Part shown: in pieces, positions 1,749 through 20,124 of the stretch
Numbering within the stretch: the stretch's first letter is position 1
Layout of the letters: every line of letters starts with the position of its first letter
Virus record (IMG/VR): IMGVR_UViG_3300029989_000084
Span: 1 to 38,019 of that record
DNA from: a virus
Direction: 5' to 3' (one strand)
DNA: 38,019 bases
Translations under genes and position numbers: made by a program
Notes under the pieces: model-generated
What the model was told of the DNA's origin: nothing
The model's database searches: none
Seen by the model: only the letters and a program-made list of their open reading frames with translations

Positions 1749-2492
1749 ATGGAGAATTTAAAAATTTTGCAGCAATGTACAGTTGCAAACAACGTAGTAA
1801 AATTACCAGAGGGTCAACTTGACCGAAAGTTGTACCAAGAAGTTGCCAAAGCCCTTGAACTTATTGGAGGTAAATGGAAAGGGGGAAAAGTAATGGGTTT
1901 TGTATTCACTACTGACCCAACAGAGTCGCTTGGGCAAATTTCAGGAGGAGAAAAACGTAATCTGAAGAAAGAGTATCAGTTCTTTGGTACACAACCAGAG
2001 TTAGCCGATTACATTATCGACCTAGCAGGTATCTCCCCAAAACATTCTATCCTTGAACCAGAAGCCGGGCAAGGAGCCCTTATTGAAGCGGTTAGCCGGT
2101 CACTCGACAGTCACAAGATAGTTGATTACTTTGAGCTTATGCCTACTAATCAGACGATACTTGACCAGAAAGATTTGTGTGCTAAGTTCGTTGCGGGTGA
2201 CTTCCTTGAATATGAGGGACAGTATAAGTGGGACAGGATCATTGCAAATCCTCCTTTCTCGAAAAACCAAGACATCGACCATATACGAAAGATGTTCGAT
2301 GTGTGTAAAGAGAGAGGAAGAATTGTCACTGTAGCTTCTACTCACTGGAAGACTTGTGACAACAAAAAGGAAAAAGAGTTCAGAGAATGGTTGCTTGACA
2401 TCAACGCTTGGGTAACAGAAGTTCCCGCAGGAGTGTTTAAAAAATCCGGGACAATGGTAGAAACTTGTATTATTGTAATAAATAAAATGTAG
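1749..2492 (+). CDS. Orphan DNA adenine-type methyltransferase
   Basis: A 247-residue SAM-dependent methyltransferase. Residues 103-109 (EPEAGQG) form motif I, the AdoMet-binding loop, and residues 167-170 (NPPF) form motif IV, the catalytic loop of N6-adenine and related amino-methyltransferases. About 80 residues precede the catalytic domain and may help DNA contact. The order motif I then motif IV is that of gamma-like classes. No restriction endonuclease lies next to it, so it is an orphan enzyme of the kind phages use to protect their DNA from host restriction. A protein or RNA target cannot be excluded. The recognition site cannot be read from sequence. Confidence 0.88.
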   Translation: MENLKILQQCTVANNVVKLPEGQLDRKLYQEVAKALELIGGKWKGGKVMGFVFTTDPTESLGQISGGEKRNLKKEYQFFGTQPELADYIIDLAGISPKHSILEPEAGQGALIEAVSRSLDSHKIVDYFELMPTNQTILDQKDLCAKFVAGDFLEYEGQYKWDRIIANPPFSKNQDIDHIRKMFDVCKERGRIVTVASTHWKTCDNKKEKEFREWLLDINAWVTEVPAGVFKKSGTMVETCIIVINKM

Positions 2493-2496
2493 TGAT

Positions 2497-3402
2497 ATGA
2501 AAAAACGGTTTAAAGATGGTCATTTCGAACACCTAGCAGAACGGTGTGAAAGTAAAAATGAAGCATTCAGTTCATTCGAGGAGTTTGAAGAGTGGTTCTA
2601 CAGATTCCATTCGCATGTATTGGTAACTGAGTGGATGTGGAGGAGAAACTCCGCAGAACCTTACGTAATGGTAAACGTGGTTGGGGTGTTTGACAACTTG
2701 AATTTAATGAGCTTACGAATAATAGGCCTTATAAATTCCGTTGCTGAGGGTAAAAGTATCGAGATCGGTTCGGAGTATACTGATGGAGAACTTTGTATAA
2801 GTATGCCAAATGGTAGACGAGTACAGTGTGAGTTTGTTCCATTCAATAGAGTGGATGAGTACAACGTACATGAAGGGTGGAAGTTTGAAATTCCTCCGTT
2901 TACTGAAATAGGAATGGTACCACAAGAAATTTCGGTAGAGGACATATCTAAAATTATCGCTGATGTGGAGGCGGAGGAACCGTACGAAGTGATACCGCTT
3001 ACTCCAGAAGTGCAGAAGAGGTACCGATATGATTGTGATTCGTACTTCAAGTATCTGGAGGATGAGCGTCCTACAGGTAGAGTAGTAATGACGTTCGAGG
3101 AAAAATATGGCTATTATGCACGTCTTTCGGGGAGTGGTAATGAACTACGAAGAAAAGTTGTGCGACCTAAAATTCTTATCCCTAGTCCACCAGAGTTTGT
3201 ATGGATGGGTGGTAAAACCGCGTTACGGTTGGTAGACTCCAATGAGTATTACAGAGACGCGGGAATGTGGTCAGTTGGTTTCGAACAAAGAGGAACAGAA
3301 TTTTATTCTGTGTGCAAACAGATGGAGCAACTAAATGGAAAACTACTTACTCCTTGCACAGAGGATGAGTACAAAGAAGACAACAAAGGATACACAGAGT
3401 AA
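2497..3402 (+). CDS. Conserved-looking hypothetical protein
   Basis: Soluble 301-residue protein with no recognised catalytic motif. Residues 1-60 are rich in E, F and W; the middle is beta-rich with an acidic stretch; the last 110 residues contain NELRRK, a PSPPEF...MGGKT segment and the ending LLTPCTEDEYKEDNKGY. That ending resembles, from recall, hypothetical proteins in Bacteroides-type phages. It starts four bases after the methyltransferase stop, so they are co-transcribed. It could be a two-domain protein, with the break near residue 170 (PLTPEVQKRY). Function unknown. Confidence 0.75.
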   Translation: MKKRFKDGHFEHLAERCESKNEAFSSFEEFEEWFYRFHSHVLVTEWMWRRNSAEPYVMVNVVGVFDNLNLMSLRIIGLINSVAEGKSIEIGSEYTDGELCISMPNGRRVQCEFVPFNRVDEYNVHEGWKFEIPPFTEIGMVPQEISVEDISKIIADVEAEEPYEVIPLTPEVQKRYRYDCDSYFKYLEDERPTGRVVMTFEEKYGYYARLSGSGNELRRKVVRPKILIPSPPEFVWMGGKTALRLVDSNEYYRDAGMWSVGFEQRGTEFYSVCKQMEQLNGKLLTPCTEDEYKEDNKGYTE

Positions 3403-3439: not shown

Positions 3440-3946
3440 ATGAATTTTGGAGAAGCAATAACCGCGTTGAAACTCGGTAAAATGGTAGCCCGAAGTACTT
3501 GGGCAAATGAAACTTTTGTATTTATGCAAATCCCATCAGAGATAGGAGTGTTGCACGTAGTACCAAAGATGCAATCGTTACCAGACAGTGTAAAGGATGA
3601 GTTCACAAGGAGACTCCTTGAAAATAAAACCTCACAGACAATCCAGTATAAGGACCAACTTGCTAAAGTGTCCAACGAGAATACTGTTGTTGGTTGGAGT
3701 GCGGGTTCTGAAGATATTTTGGCGGAGGACTGGTGTGACTATAACAAAGGAATTCTTTCCTCAGTTCGGTCAGGTATGTACGGAGAATTACCTACTTTGA
3801 GCGTAGGAGAATTTGCAATCGCTCCAATGAGTAACCGACCAGGAGAAGACACCTTGTGGATAGAGAAAACCTCCGAAGAAGGTACGCAGGTATCTGTCAA
3901 GAGATTTGAAGAGTTCCTTAGTGACTTCTTTGACGAGGTAATGTAG
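3440..3946 (+). CDS. tad2: DUF2829 / Tad2-like anti-Thoeris protein with C-terminal extension
   Basis: Residues 1-105 match the DUF2829 family as I know it: MNFGEAITALKLGKMVAR...W at the start, a middle VVPKMQSLP...SVKDEF segment, and the closing W-x(6)-D-I-LAEDW. This is the family of Tad2, a phage protein that sequesters the signalling nucleotide made by Thoeris defence; some Tad2 proteins also bind other cyclic nucleotides. Tad2 proteins are usually about 90-100 residues, whereas this one is 168: about 60 residues follow the LAEDW box, containing LWIEKTSEEG and ending in an acidic FEEFLSDFFDEVM helix. That tail resembles, from recall, small stand-alone phage proteins, so this may be a fusion. 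Family membership is strong; ligand binding is inferred. Confidence 0.83.
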   Translation: MNFGEAITALKLGKMVARSTWANETFVFMQIPSEIGVLHVVPKMQSLPDSVKDEFTRRLLENKTSQTIQYKDQLAKVSNENTVVGWSAGSEDILAEDWCDYNKGILSSVRSGMYGELPTLSVGEFAIAPMSNRPGEDTLWIEKTSEEGTQVSVKRFEEFLSDFFDEVM

Positions 3947-3973: not shown

Positions 3974-4435
3974 ATGTTAGAAGATGAAATAAAAATCGCC
4001 ATTGAGAAAAACTTATCCGCGGAGGTAGGTAAAACTCTAAAAGTAGTACTAGAGAAAGCTGAAAAGGATGCTGAACAAGTAGGGCAACTGAGTAAACAAG
4101 TAGAAGCCTTGAAAAATACTCTATTAGAGAGCCAAGCAGAGCTGCGCAAACACGAACAGCTAGACTTACGCATGAAAAGCGTAGAAGATGCCGAGAAGAA
4201 AAACACGCAGGATGCTCTGAAGATAAAAACAGACACTCTTGAATACCAACTCGAAACAGAGAAAGACAAAACTAAGTTTGTCACTGGTGTAGCAATGGGA
4301 CTCGTACGTAATACTGAATTTCGGAGAAGTCTGTTTGATAATGCAGTAGACTTTAATGCGGCAGTGGATCAGTATGGTAATCATATACCGATAACAAGGA
4401 CACAGAACTCTACCGAGACTAACACTACGGAGTAA
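3974..4435 (+). CDS. Coiled-coil hypothetical protein
   Basis: A 153-residue, highly charged protein. Residues 1-25 (EIKIAIEKNLSAEVG) are followed by a long coiled coil to about residue 100 with regular leucines, then GVAMGLVRNTEFRRSLFD and a polar, threonine-rich tail. The sequence GLVRNTE[FY]RRSxFD after a coiled coil is, from recall, a recurring signature of an uncharacterised Bacteroidota phage family. It begins 28 bases after the Tad2-like gene. Oligomerisation is likely; the partner is unknown. Confidence 0.82.
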   Translation: MLEDEIKIAIEKNLSAEVGKTLKVVLEKAEKDAEQVGQLSKQVEALKNTLLESQAELRKHEQLDLRMKSVEDAEKKNTQDALKIKTDTLEYQLETEKDKTKFVTGVAMGLVRNTEFRRSLFDNAVDFNAAVDQYGNHIPITRTQNSTETNTTE

Positions 4436-4759: not shown

Positions 4760-4773
4760 GTTGTATATAAAAA

Positions 4774-4804
4774 CCTCTATCAGGAAACTGGTAGGGGTAT
4801 TTTT
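4774..4804 (+). terminator. Strong intrinsic terminator
   Basis: A ten-base-pair stem (4774-4783 with 4788-4797, two G-U wobbles) closes a GAAA tetraloop and is followed directly by TATTTTT. It starts 14 bases after the stop of the gene ending at 4759. This is a textbook rho-independent terminator and marks the boundary between the first gene cluster and the 1.6 kb non-coding region. Confidence 0.9.
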
Positions 4805-4899
4805 GTGCCAAAAAAGCTCTATAACTAGGGGTAACCTATAAATTCTATTTTAAAACCACGTAAAAAAGCATCCAAAGAGAGTCTGTGTGTAGAAAAACT

Positions 4900-4915
4900 C
4901 TTTTTCGCGGGAAAG
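4900..4915. repeat. 16-base dyad-like repeat, copy 1
   Basis: CTTTTTCGCGGGAAAG occurs here and again, identical, at 5765-5780; a looser version (ACTTTTCGGCGGAAGT) is at 5879-5894. The element is itself an imperfect palindrome (six of eight positions pair), as expected for a protein-binding site. Confidence 0.7.
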
Positions 4916-5016
4916 TCCCAGTATAACAAGAACTATATAATAGTAGAGTAAGTAATAGAATGACCAATTACCCATGGTAACTAGTAGAATTTGGGGGTAA
5001 ATAGACGGTTATGTGT

Positions 5017-5030
5017 CTACACAGAGAGTA
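5017..5030 (+). repeat. 14-base repeat, copy 1
   Basis: CTACACAGAGAGTA here recurs identically at 5374-5387. Related partial copies (CTACGGAGAGTA near 5284, CTACACAGAG at 5821) show a degenerate family spread over the non-coding region. Confidence 0.65.
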
Positions 5031-5320
5031 AATGATTGAATGAGACTCCTAGAAGTAACCGTAAAAGAAATCGGGTTCGCGGAGTAAGTGTGTATGATAG
5101 TAAGTATATAAGTATAGTATAACAATGAATAGTAGTACAAGTGGGAGTTCTTATGTACGTGTAACTATACTGATGGGTAAGCGGGACGTGTAGCAGGAAT
5201 AGAAAAATAAATTAGAGCATAGCTGCGTAGGGAGTAAATGGCTGATTAGAGTAATTTGCAGCTAAAAAGTGCTAGTTAGGTGTCTACGGAGAGTAATTAG
5301 CTAGTTAGAGTGCTACGTGT

Positions 5321-5332
5321 AGCTAATTAGCT
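5321..5332. repeat. Perfect 12-base palindrome
   Basis: AGCTAATTAGCT is fully self-complementary. It lies in a part of the non-coding region where shorter pieces of the same word (TAATTAGCTAG at 5294, TTAGCTAC at 5370) are scattered. Possible binding site for a dimeric protein. Confidence 0.5.
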
Positions 5333-5373
5333 GTGTGCAGAGGGTAATTTTGTGGGAATTTTATTCTAGTTAG

Positions 5374-5387
5374 CTACACAGAGAGTA
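5374..5387 (+). repeat. 14-base repeat, copy 2
   Basis: Second exact copy of CTACACAGAGAGTA (first at 5017-5030), same orientation, 357 bases downstream. Confidence 0.65.
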
Positions 5388-5410
5388 TCACTAGAGATAA
5401 AACAAGTGAG

Positions 5411-5429
5411 ATAGTAATGCTATTACTAT
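5411..5429. repeat. Perfect 8-base inverted repeat with 3-base spacer
   Basis: ATAGTAAT, spacer GCT, ATTACTAT. The two arms are exactly complementary, giving either an operator-like dyad or a small hairpin. There is no T-run after it, so it is not a terminator. Confidence 0.55.
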
Positions 5430-5511
5430 GTACTTATGCCTATTAGAATACTATATCATGGGTAACAAACTAGTAACTGGCGAAATTTTCCATTCTTAGG
5501 CAGTTTCTCCG

Positions 5512-5648
5512 TGACAAAAAGATAGCTGTGTGGGGAAAATACGCTACTGGTAGCTTTTTTGTGACAAAATGATATTCAAATTTGAAGAAAAGAGGATTTA
5601 GTACGGAAATTTCCCGAGAAAGTACAAAACACAACTATCATTTTGTCA
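5512..5648. repeat. Three-copy 13-base element (possible iterons)
   Basis: TGACAAAATGATA occurs at 5562-5574, with a one-mismatch direct copy exactly 50 bases upstream (5512-5524) and an exact inverted copy at 5636-5648. The perfect palindrome TTCAAATTTGAA (5575-5586) abuts the middle copy. Repeated, oriented elements at fixed spacing next to dyads resemble binding arrays for a replication initiator or a repressor. Function is inferred. Confidence 0.65.
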
Positions 5649-5694
5649 ATTGGATAATAGTGGTGTAACTGCATGTGTAATTCTAACTAGAAAC

Positions 5695-5713
5695 TAGCGT
5701 AGCTAGATAGAAA
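5695..5713 (+). repeat. 19-base repeat, copy 1
   Basis: TAGCGTAGCTAGATAGAAA here pairs with a copy at 5988-6006 that differs at one base. Both are direct and followed by AT-rich sequence with a GCAT or ACAT word. Confidence 0.6.
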
Positions 5714-5764
5714 GTAATTGCATGCGTGTGCGTAGCAACTACCCGTAGGAGAAGTCTAAATAAC

Positions 5765-5780
5765 CTTTTTCGCGGGAAAG
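5765..5780. repeat. 16-base dyad-like repeat, copy 2
   Basis: Exact second copy of the element at 4900-4915, 865 bases downstream in the same orientation. Confidence 0.7.
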
Positions 5781-5987
5781 AATACTTTCTTATATACTAT
5801 AGGAGAGTAAGAGTAAATAACTACACAGAGTTTTCTCCAATTAGAAGTTCTCTGCGTAGGAAATTTTCTGGAAAGAAAACTTTTCGGCGGAAGTATTTTT
5901 ATTCTTATTAGAGTATAGTATGTAGTATGTAGTACATGAGGGGAAAGAAGTAATGAGAGATTTATTTTATTAGAACGGTACTACGCG

Positions 5988-6006
5988 TAGCGTAGCTAGA
6001 CAGAAA
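5988..6006 (+). repeat. 19-base repeat, copy 2
   Basis: Near-identical copy (18 of 19) of the repeat at 5695-5713. It lies just upstream of a change in base composition from AT-rich to G-rich. Confidence 0.6.
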
Positions 6007-6153
6007 TAACCACATGAAAAATCGGAGCTCAGCAGTTAGGCCCCCCATTAAATGAAGATTGCGTGTGGTGTAGCGACGGGTAGTTGATTTAGGTCGCAAG
6101 TAGGATTATGAAAGTCTGGGTACATTGTGTTAATAAAATTAGGGGGTAAACAT

Positions 6154-6209
6154 GTGGACGGTGGTGGGTGTGTTCGGTACGGTGGTAGTGGTGGAGGTTG
6201 GTGGTGGTA
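6154..6209 (+). other. G-rich tract, possible two-tier G-quadruplexes
   Basis: About a dozen GG or GGG runs separated by one to six bases occur on the + strand, with almost no C. The strand bias is unlike the rest of the region. Such sequence can form two-layer G-quadruplexes in single-stranded DNA or RNA. The short reading frame through it (28 codons) shows no sign of being a gene. Confidence 0.5.
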
Positions 6210-6335
6210 CAAAACAACTAAAAATGGTGGATCGTTAGTGTGTTTGAAGTGTGCCCGCCCAAGAGGTAATTTTGGGTGTTCCTACGTGCTACCAGTGTGC
6301 AAGTGACTGAAAAAACTTTGTATTTACTTGAAACT

Positions 6336-6392
6336 TTAACTATAATGTTATTGTTATTACAATAGAAATAACTACATTTGTGTATTGAAATT
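6336..6392 (+). promoter_or_regulatory. Promoter P1 with operator-like inverted repeat (twin of P2)
   Basis: Contains TTG at 6351-6353, a 19-base spacer and TACATTTG at 6373-6380, the Bacteroidota -33/-7 promoter form. The -33 TTG lies inside the inverted repeat TATTGT-TATT-ACAATA (6349-6364), a likely repressor site. The whole 57-base block matches the block at 7765-7821 at 49 positions, including downstream of the -7 element (GTGTATTGAAATT). It drives the genes from 6430 onward. Confidence 0.85.
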
Positions 6393-6429
6393 CTCGTTAT
6401 ACAAACAACACATTTAACAAGAAAGCATT

Positions 6430-6540
6430 ATGAAAGCAGAAATGATTATCCTAGTAGTAGCAGTTATCTCGGTAGTAGCCGTAGTAGTAACATTCGTATG
6501 GAATGAGTTTAAAAAAGCAAAACACCGTGGAAACAATTAA
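6430..6540 (+). CDS. Tiny single-pass membrane peptide
   Basis: 36-residue peptide: a short polar N terminus, a continuous hydrophobic run of about 20 residues (IILVVAVISVVAVVVTFVW), then a basic tail (FKKAKHRGNN). It is the first gene behind promoter P1, with an A-rich leader, so it is probably made early and in quantity. It overlaps the next gene by 38 bases in another frame. Function unknown. Confidence 0.7.
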   Translation: MKAEMIILVVAVISVVAVVVTFVWNEFKKAKHRGNN

Positions 6541-7836: not shown

Positions 7837-8577
7837 ATGACACAGGTAGTTATATTTGGAACGGAGTACATGTTTTGCAGACCAATCGGGGCAAACAATG
7901 CTGACAGATTCAATCGCGTTACGAAACTAGCGAGTAAATTTGAAAAGCTGTCAAAGAAGTTTGATGGTATGATTAAAAGGGGAGGAAGTAGTTCCCGACA
8001 AGCACAACTCGCACTGGCTTGCAAGCTAATGATGTACACTGGTATAAGAGTTGGTAATGAAGGAAGCGCAGAGGGGTACGTTACGAAGCCCCACCCAAAC
8101 AGTAAAGCGGAACCAAAGTTCGTACAGACATACGGATTGACCACACTGAAAAAAGAACATGTGATATTGGCTCCACGGAGAGTATGCTTAAACTTCATTG
8201 GCAAAAAACAAGTAGAGAACAGTTTCGTTCTGAGTGGAGAGTTAGGCAAACAAGTCCGTTCCCTCTACAAAATTGCAGAAGAGACATTATTCGACATATC
8301 GGCAGAGGAGATTAGGAAGTTCATTAAAGTTTCGGTCGGAGACGTTTTTACTCCAAAGGACTTTCGTACAATGAGAGCTAATATGTATGCAATGGAAATG
8401 ATAACGGAAATATCCGAGAGAGAAACTCCAAATCGTAAATCGGAGTTCAACAAAGAAATTAAAGAGGTTGCAAGTTTCGTAGCCGAACAATTGAATAACA
8501 CAGCGGGAGTTTGTAAAGCATCCTACATAGACCCAATGGTTTGGGAGTATTTTGAAACTGTTAGATGCAACAATTAA
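7837..8577 (+). CDS. Type IB DNA topoisomerase (poxvirus/bacterial-like)
   Basis: 246 residues corresponding to the catalytic domain of topoisomerase IB, which relaxes supercoils by nicking and resealing one strand through a 3'-phosphotyrosine. Visible signature: TGIRVGNE (Arg71), GLTTLKKEHV, F-I-GKKQ (Lys123/124), FTPKDFRT (Arg177) and NTAGVCKASYIDP with the likely nucleophile Tyr230. The TGIRVGNE and GLTTL boxes separate it from tyrosine integrases, which share the fold. The protein is shorter than the roughly 310-residue poxvirus enzyme, so the N-terminal clamp domain is reduced or absent. First gene behind promoter P2; it probably manages superhelicity during replication or transcription. 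Confidence 0.92.
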   Translation: MTQVVIFGTEYMFCRPIGANNADRFNRVTKLASKFEKLSKKFDGMIKRGGSSSRQAQLALACKLMMYTGIRVGNEGSAEGYVTKPHPNSKAEPKFVQTYGLTTLKKEHVILAPRRVCLNFIGKKQVENSFVLSGELGKQVRSLYKIAEETLFDISAEEIRKFIKVSVGDVFTPKDFRTMRANMYAMEMITEISERETPNRKSEFNKEIKEVASFVAEQLNNTAGVCKASYIDPMVWEYFETVRCNN

Positions 8578-11097: not shown

Positions 11098-11210
11098 TTA
11101 CAATTCAATGTATCGGATATTCCATTATAACTATCGCCACAGCGCGAGTTATATGGTATGTAATAAATTTAATAACCCCCAAAAATAAGAAAAATGGAAA
11201 CAAGAATTAA
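11094..11210 (+). CDS. Tiny membrane peptide
   Basis: 38 residues with one hydrophobic span (IQCIGYSIITIATARVIWYVINLI) followed by a basic tail (PKNKKNGNKN). Start overlaps the previous stop (ATGA) and its end overlaps the start of the next gene by 17 bases. Supported by position and composition only. Confidence 0.5.
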   Translation: MITIQCIGYSIITIATARVIWYVINLITPKNKKNGNKN

Positions 11211-11586
11211 AATGGGAGATACACTCACCCAAACAATAATGAGAATGTCAGAGGGAAATCCCGGAGCAGTACAAGCAATGGCGGTAATGATGCAGAATAG
11301 TGTAAAGATTGACCCCGAGTCAGCTCTAAAAGAGTTCAGTGGGATTGTCTCCCTAGATTCTTTCGGTATTTATGGTACTGCTATCTATGTATTGTGGAGT
11401 GACATTTGTGGAAAAGACATGCCTAAAATGTTGGCTGTCCTACGCTCTGTACAGTTAGGATTTTTCACCAGAGAGGTTTTGAGAGACGCTTGCAGTCGAC
11501 AAGACTATTCTGGAAGAGAGATGGTTCCAGTTGAAGAGCTATATGAAAAAGTGTATAACTACTTAGACAGATTCAACCGTGAATAG
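11194..11586 (+). CDS. Conserved phage hypothetical protein
   Basis: 130 residues, largely helical. The pattern GDTLTQTIMRMSEGNPGA...LDSFGIYG...MLAVLRSVQLGF matches, from recall, an uncharacterised protein seen in several large myoviruses (G-D-[TL]...MSEGNPGA...L-D-x-FGIYG). An A-rich leader with AATAAGAAAA precedes the ATG. No enzyme motif. Its recurrence in phage early regions suggests a conserved role, unknown. Confidence 0.82.
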   Translation: METRIKMGDTLTQTIMRMSEGNPGAVQAMAVMMQNSVKIDPESALKEFSGIVSLDSFGIYGTAIYVLWSDICGKDMPKMLAVLRSVQLGFFTREVLRDACSRQDYSGREMVPVEELYEKVYNYLDRFNRE

Positions 11587-18471: not shown

Positions 18472-20124
18472 ATGGCTAAAAAGTCTACACTTCCAAAAGA
18501 AGATGGGTTTGTATTCGAGACAACTGGTGGTAGTGTTGAGAGTATAAAAACCGAAGAGCTCTCTGGGAGAACTATGGAGTTTGATACTCATTTTGTGGTG
18601 AGTAAGATTATGGAGTTTGGCAAAGTTCTTACTGGACTTTCTTTGTATGGATACCAAGAGGAAATTGCATACTCAGTAATTCATTCCGTTATCACTTTTT
18701 CGGGGGACATTAAAACAGTACTTCTATCCAGACAATCTGGAAAATCGGAGGTAATGGCATTTATTATTGATACCCTTACTGTATTACTACCGGCACTGTC
18801 TAAAGTAATTCCAGAACTGGAACAATTTAAGTCCGGGTTTCGTATTGGACTTTTCGCCCCACAGTCGGACCAGGTAGTTACCACATATTCTAGGGCAATG
18901 ACTCGTTTGGATTCTGCGAACGCTGAAATGATATTGGCTGACCCAGACATTGCAGTATTCAGAGAAAGTGCTGCAAAACTTGTATTGAGTAATGGGTCGT
19001 ACCTTGCGGGGCAAGTTGCCAGTAAACAATCTAAGATTGAGTCTAAGACTTATGACCTTGTAATTGTCGAAGAAGCGCAAGATGTGGATGATTTTATTCT
19101 GTCCAAATCTATAGAGCCTATGGTCTCGGCCACTTCCGGCACAATTCTAAAAGTAGGGACAACCGGGCAAACTAAAAACCACTTTTGGTATGAGATACTC
19201 CGTAATCGAAATCTGGACAGAAAAATTGCAGATCAGCGGATACGTCACCACTTTGAATTTGATTATAAGAAAATTATTGCTGCAAGACGTGAACAGTACA
19301 ACAGAGACGGAGTACGTTTCCACTTGAACTACGAAGCGGATGTTTTGCGTAAAGAAGAACGTTGGGGAAAAGATTCCCAAGCGTTTAAACTTGCCTACGC
19401 TCTTATATGGGATTTGGAAAGTGGTATGCTTATCACTGATGCAGACTTCAATAATTTATTGAACCGCAAAAAAGGTTTCCAACCGTTACAGAACTCTGAT
19501 TACGTGGTAGCAGGTTTGGATATTGCAAAAAGTCCGGCAAGTACGGTGCTAACCATTGTAAAAGTGTACTACGGAGAGGATATATTTGAAAAACCATACA
19601 AAGAAATTCTCGGGTGGATTGACCTTGGAGGGCTAAATTATGAAAGTCAGCATCATACACTTATTGATTTTATTGCAGAGTTCAACATTTCTACTATCTT
19701 TGCAGACTATACTGGTGTTGGTAGAGCAGTAGTCGATAGGCTAACTTATGCTTGTGGTGAATACGTAAACGTAGAACCCTACACATTTACAGCACAAAGT
19801 AAATCGGATATGTGGTATAACCTTACTTCTGATATTCAGATGAAGAGGATAGTAGTACCGGCAAATAAAACTGTTCGTTCTACTACAGAGTTCCAAAAAT
19901 TCGAGGAACAAATGAAAAACTGTCAGAAGTATTTCAATGGACCATATTTAGTCTGCGAAAAATCTGATGGATACTTTGATGATTATGTTGATAGTTTAGG
20001 CCTCGCTTGTCTCGCTGCAAATCAAGAACAAGAAGTTGGTTACGAAATTGAGACCTCGGATAATCCTCTCTACGGAGCTGTTACGGATGCAGTAAGTTCA
20101 ATGAAAAGAAACTCTTTTAATTAA
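18472..20124 (+). CDS. terL: Terminase large subunit
   Basis: 550-residue packaging motor. ATPase domain: Walker A SRQSGKS (86-92), Walker B LVIVEEAQD (196-204) with catalytic Glu, coupling motif KVGTTG (227-232). Nuclease domain: acidic residues in GLDIAKS (348-354), ADYTGVG (411-417) and DDYVDSLGLA (from 503). Length is normal. It has a rare Shine-Dalgarno (GGGAGG at 18459-18464, seven bases before ATG). No small terminase subunit is obvious upstream; the basic protein at 17056 is a weak candidate. It pumps DNA into proheads through the portal encoded next. Confidence 0.97.
   Translation: MAKKSTLPKEDGFVFETTGGSVESIKTEELSGRTMEFDTHFVVSKIMEFGKVLTGLSLYGYQEEIAYSVIHSVITFSGDIKTVLLSRQSGKSEVMAFIIDTLTVLLPALSKVIPELEQFKSGFRIGLFAPQSDQVVTTYSRAMTRLDSANAEMILADPDIAVFRESAAKLVLSNGSYLAGQVASKQSKIESKTYDLVIVEEAQDVDDFILSKSIEPMVSATSGTILKVGTTGQTKNHFWYEILRNRNLDRKIADQRIRHHFEFDYKKIIAARREQYNRDGVRFHLNYEADVLRKEERWGKDSQAFKLAYALIWDLESGMLITDADFNNLLNRKKGFQPLQNSDYVVAGLDIAKSPASTVLTIVKVYYGEDIFEKPYKEILGWIDLGGLNYESQHHTLIDFIAEFNISTIFADYTGVGRAVVDRLTYACGEYVNVEPYTFTAQSKSDMWYNLTSDIQMKRIVVPANKTVRSTTEFQKFEEQMKNCQKYFNGPYLVCEKSDGYFDDYVDSLGLACLAANQEQEVGYEIETSDNPLYGAVTDAVSSMKRNSFN

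Follow-up and report, generated by a model that had tools for sequence, protein, structure and literature searches.

Tad2 proteins assemble as homotetramers, and their gcADPR pockets are lined by the loop between strands b1 and b2, the loop b3-b4, strand b4, the loop b4-a3 and helix a3, while an insertion between b2 and b5 binds cyclic dinucleotides (review, PMC12043709). Among the solved members, the structure of SPO1 Tad2 was determined with gcADPR and that of ModTad2 of Myroides odoratus with His-ADPR. A further protein family, the phage RyR-domain proteins, was described in a 2026 preprint which does not mention Tad2; its members are reported to break down cyclic ADP-ribose signals or to sequester them (PMC13232231).

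The protein considered here is encoded in the window, the whole stretch of 38,019 bases of viral DNA that was analysed, by an ORF at positions 3440-3946 whose coordinates and start codon were correctly given in the initial annotation. We read the 168-aa product, with fair but not high confidence, as a Tad2-family phage signal sponge of the long-insert branch which carries a lineage-specific C-terminal domain. The ORF and its neighbours are composed as follows:

1749-2492, plus strand: N6-adenine-type DNA methyltransferase with an NPPF motif (PF02384, 22.5 bits versus a cut-off of 20.4; PADLOC methyltransferase models)
2497-3402, plus strand: neighbour of 301 aa, unmatched in Pfam and PADLOC as well as in phage records and IMG/VR
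3440-3736, plus strand: Tad2-like (DUF2829, PF11195) domain, residues 1-99 (Pfam E=1.2e-14; AlphaFold2 pLDDT mostly >90; VIA-align Z 11.6 to HgmTad2 8kbj)
3737-3790, plus strand: linker, residues 100-117 (AlphaFold2: helix 101-112, then a low-confidence stretch; relatives stop 1-9 residues from EDW)
3791-3943, plus strand: orphan C-terminal domain, residues 118-168 (AlphaFold2: beta-meander and C-terminal helix; no sequence homologue)
3974-4435, plus strand: neighbour of 153 aa, coiled coil-like by eye, no match above cut-off

The assignment of residues 1-99 to the Tad2 fold is settled, and the DUF2829 pattern noticed initially in the N-terminal part is borne out by both sequence and fold. The PF11195 match scores 55 bits (cut-off 25) and covers profile positions 1-71 of 73. 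SptTad2, HgmTad2 and AcrIIA7 are the nearest solved proteins by sequence, with E-values between 6e-10 and 1e-9; when a profile built from 47 relatives is used instead, these improve to 2.5e-23, 1.4e-20 and 2.2e-19, respectively. In the AlphaFold2 model the Tad2 part is confidently predicted, and its comparison by VIA-align places all ten solved Tad2 entries on top with Z-scores of 9.7-11.6, followed by the next unrelated row at Z 4.9; the superposition with the best match, HgmTad2, has an rmsd of 1.8 over 96 residues.

A long insert after b2 (residues ~33-66) can be aligned with that of SptTad2 and HgmTad2 and contains the S-L-P...K motif present in both of them. The branch invariants Q30, M44, Q45, S46, K52, Y70 and Q73 are likewise kept, and by its sequence the window protein is assigned to the long-insert branch together with HgmTad2, SptTad2 and AcrIIA7. 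In the pocket region W21, W86, D92, D97 and W98 are retained. The b1-b2 loop, usually WNGKG, reads WAN-ET, and Gly takes the place of the Ser normally found at position 89, so that the binding of a ligand may have changed or disappeared. Because of the degenerate NGKG loop the ligand of this Tad2 domain is uncertain, and gcADPR would be no more likely a candidate than a cyclic dinucleotide or another ADP-ribose signal. The change as such is not unusual, since a clear NGxG loop is likewise absent from a considerable part of the branch; applying a strict pattern, the standard loop is missing in up to 22 of the 91 distinct relative domains.

The C-terminal tail is coding, because the two parts of the gene have equal in-frame codon scores (0.138 and 0.139) and the other five frames score negative or zero. 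The segment LWIEKTSEEG...FEEFLSDFF, pointed out initially, indeed lies near the C-terminus. In the AlphaFold2 model of the full protein the tail comprises strands 120-122, 125-129, 138-145 and 148-155 and a helix 156-167 (pLDDT ~50-78); modelled alone, it forms a similar strand meander and helix with a mean pLDDT of 74. Both models are of moderate confidence only.

The tail was searched for relatives at several levels. Separate HMM searches, as had been suggested for the two parts, assigned the N-terminal part to PF11195 and found no match in Pfam or PHROGs for residues 106-168 alone; NCBIfam and PADLOC, scanned with the full protein, contributed nothing for the tail. A tblastn search of phages and plasmids with E-values up to 10 yielded chance matches only, e.g. 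Microvirus VP4 at E=0.8. IMG/VR, scanned both with the complete protein and with its tail, gave no confirmed relative, the pattern LWIE...EG...F occurred there in 15 stretches, none of them a plausible relative, and the three weak matches in 395 bacterial genomes of one class were not convincing. The tail does not match the crAss001_48 profile (PF21825) and is predicted to be beta-rich, not a helical hairpin. The initial annotation had proposed a resemblance to stand-alone small phage proteins, for which neither tblastn nor profiles, pattern scans or genomes provided a homologue. As judged from these sequence comparisons, this C-terminal tail appears to be a new, orphan sequence found in no surveyed relative.

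Fold comparisons gave a similar picture. The best Foldseek hit of the tail in the PDB has E 0.45, and the matches to the KhtT N-domain (Z 5.6), the PUR repeats of PURA (Z 4.7) and the PC4-like MoSub1 (Z 4.5) are all in the chance range; polo boxes are also returned (Z <=5.6). A small meander followed by a helix is a common arrangement, and the matches of the modelled tail would not justify any functional name. Weak fold matches to a few BFVD models of 75-90 aa (E 0.009 or worse) were also recorded. Two of them were followed into the genomes of Sinorhizobium phage ort11 and Actinomyces phage Av-1, where the proteins were selected by length; neither has sequence similarity to the tail, and both were discarded.

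For an overview of the family architecture, 113 loci with relatives were collected from viral contigs and bacterial genomes, giving 108 matches with a full domain, near-duplicates included. Counting extensions of >=30 residues, 45 relatives have none, 56 are extended N-terminally (an upper bound, as measured from the first in-frame Met) and 7 C-terminally; most relatives terminate 1-9 residues past the EDW motif. The tail of the window protein is present in 0 of the 108, which confirms the proposal that it is a true extra and not a normal feature of the family. The statement that it roughly doubles the usual size is valid in comparison to members of 90-110 aa, but more than half of the surveyed relatives are extended too, mostly N-terminally.

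The C-terminal extension found in relatives is the crAss001_48 hairpin (PF21825; L043, L047, L049, L050, L051, L053 and L055), recognised in three cases by Pfam scan and in the remaining four through alignments combined with a profile constructed for the survey. N-terminal examples include L002, L012, L045, L052, L065, L067, L110 and L123. Altogether, crAss001_48 and Tad2 are joined in both orders in Bacteroidota phages, ~40 times N-terminally and 7-8 times C-terminally in the sample, and this joining in both orders suggests a role of crAss001_48 linked to signal sequestration. Tad2 in Bacteroidota phages is thus often one module of a longer protein, and because such extended proteins are common there, a Tad2 fusion as such is not special.

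Two further relatives, L100 (2144-2806) and L164 (1504-2115), carry an RyR domain (PF02026, E ~2e-11 in both) N-terminal to Tad2. One of their Tad2 domains is of the long-insert kind and the other of the short kind, an indication that RyR and Tad2 were joined twice independently. When 48 loci in IMG/VR with relatives of the RyR domain of L100 were inspected, a single one, L164, had the fusion besides L100 itself. The carriers of both are phage or phage-like contigs. By analogy to the activities of the two families, a single RyR-Tad2 chain may possess two anti-Thoeris activities, and these fusions are better candidates for such a combination than the window protein. As a wider lead from the survey, multi-domain Tad2 proteins including RyR-Tad2 make the idea of two weapons in one chain directly testable.

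In the scenario we favour, a signal sponge with an added domain, family knowledge suggests that the Tad2 part would assemble as a homotetramer and sequester the nucleotide signal of Thoeris or CBASS during infection. The tail might serve as an accessory module tuning stability, oligomer geometry or partner binding, a role considered because both Tad2 ends tolerate added domains in relatives. The deposition of the solved AcrIIA7 members of the long-insert branch as anti-CRISPR proteins counts against a sponge. Together with the degenerate NGKG loop, the Ser89Gly exchange and the location of the Tad2-like gene of BS-TP2 among head-tail genes, it would fit a protein which has lost the binding of defence signals and has taken on another role, e.g. 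in the virion or as an inhibitor of the AcrIIA7 type. We regard such a change of role as very doubtful, since the loop is also degenerate elsewhere in the branch and the invariant residues of the insert are retained.

The other alternatives concern the tail. It might, as proposed in the initial annotation, constitute a second ligand-binding or second anti-defence domain of a two-headed counter-defence protein, since the RyR-Tad2 proteins offer a precedent within the family, with both domain families acting on ADP-ribose signals, and as the tail is predicted to fold as a compact unit. However, it has neither a homologue nor a significant fold match, comprises only 50-60 residues and, being a single sequence, does not permit conserved residues to be judged, so that we hold a two-headed protein to be unlikely. 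That the tail represents a small domain of a new type which binds nucleotides or blocks an effector, and by which one protein would disarm two signals, or a signal and a sensor, appears distinctly improbable. If the tail does add a function, sponge proteins would gain reach by acquiring small modules. Conversely, the loss of a stop codon might recently have joined a separate or non-coding sequence of little function to a normal Tad2 gene. Such a read-through would agree with the usual end of relatives shortly after EDW and with the orphan character of the tail; the closest relative (L098, 60% identity over the Tad2 part) ends with EDWCILD. Yet the codon usage of the tail is normal for the phage, the other frames are negative or zero, and a meander plus helix, as predicted here, is rarely given by random read-through. 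We therefore judge it quite improbable and retain the sponge with a lineage-specific C-terminal domain as the preferred reading.

The terminase and several structural-region genes of the window are in parts ~60-78% identical to those of Bacteroides phage BS162P1, whose host is Bacteroides salyersiae, and of the human faecal phage MT835482; from these relatives, the host of the window virus is probably a member of the Bacteroidales. The first 7 kb have almost nothing in common with the compared relatives except Tad2-like proteins. The methyltransferase, with phage homologues of up to 43% identity, is supported by a family match above the cut-off, and no restriction enzyme was recognised beside it. 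It is the sole recognisable neighbour, the others having no match above cut-off, and the proposed counter-defence island around 3440-3946 was not corroborated, possible as it is. As to the small paralogues reported initially, the four small tandem ORFs upstream, at 34-1158, resemble one another weakly at most (E 5e-4 to 0.08 when 18 proteins were compared) and are perhaps, judging from their sequences, very diverged paralogues.

Several observations concern the remainder of the window. The region 4760-6502, 1.7 kb without plausible genes, is possibly a control region or origin; scattered over it are short repeats, both direct and inverted (CTACACAGAGAGTA and GCTAGTTAG among them). A DNA topoisomerase IB-like protein (7837-8577; PF01028, E=2e-18) is annotated in BS162P1 too. 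Relatives of this topoisomerase and of the 301-aa neighbour were sought as a route to sister phages with the Tad2 gene, and none was confirmed. The 130-aa product of 11194-11586 is 42% identical to that of the gene directly upstream of a DUF2829 gene in Bacteroides phage BS-TP1; in the window it is located 7 kb away from the Tad2-like gene. The terminase gene (18472-20124) is uninterrupted, whereas the terminases of BS162P1 and MT835482 have an insertion of ~350 residues near residue 215, which in BS162P1 matches an intein with a LAGLIDADG endonuclease. No hits were obtained when the 38,019 bases were scanned with Rfam and for tRNAs.

Compared with the known systems, the window protein is closest to HgmTad2/AcrIIA7 (pdb-codes: 8kbi, 8kbj, 8kbk, 9kzr) and SptTad2 (8wjd, with cGG), with which it shares the fold (Z 11.6 and 11.4), the long insert and 32-33% and 34% sequence identity, respectively. 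In contrast to the window protein, HgmTad2/AcrIIA7 end just past EDW without a C-terminal domain, and SptTad2 has 101 residues and no tail; the NGKG loop is intact in all of them. AcrIIA7 (9kzr) has an N-terminal extension. SPO1 Tad2 (8smf) and ModTad2 (9eib) share the Tad2 fold (Z 9.7-10.2) but represent the short form devoid of both the long insert and the tail. Proteins composed of Tad2 and a C-terminal crAss001_48 domain of ~69 residues correspond to the window protein in domain order and are about equal in total length; their extension, however, is recognised by Pfam and forms a helical hairpin, whereas the tail described here is predicted to be beta-rich and has no match. The RyR-Tad2 proteins likewise join Tad2 to a second domain, which in their case is N-terminal and derives from a family reported to act on immune signals of the ADP-ribose type.
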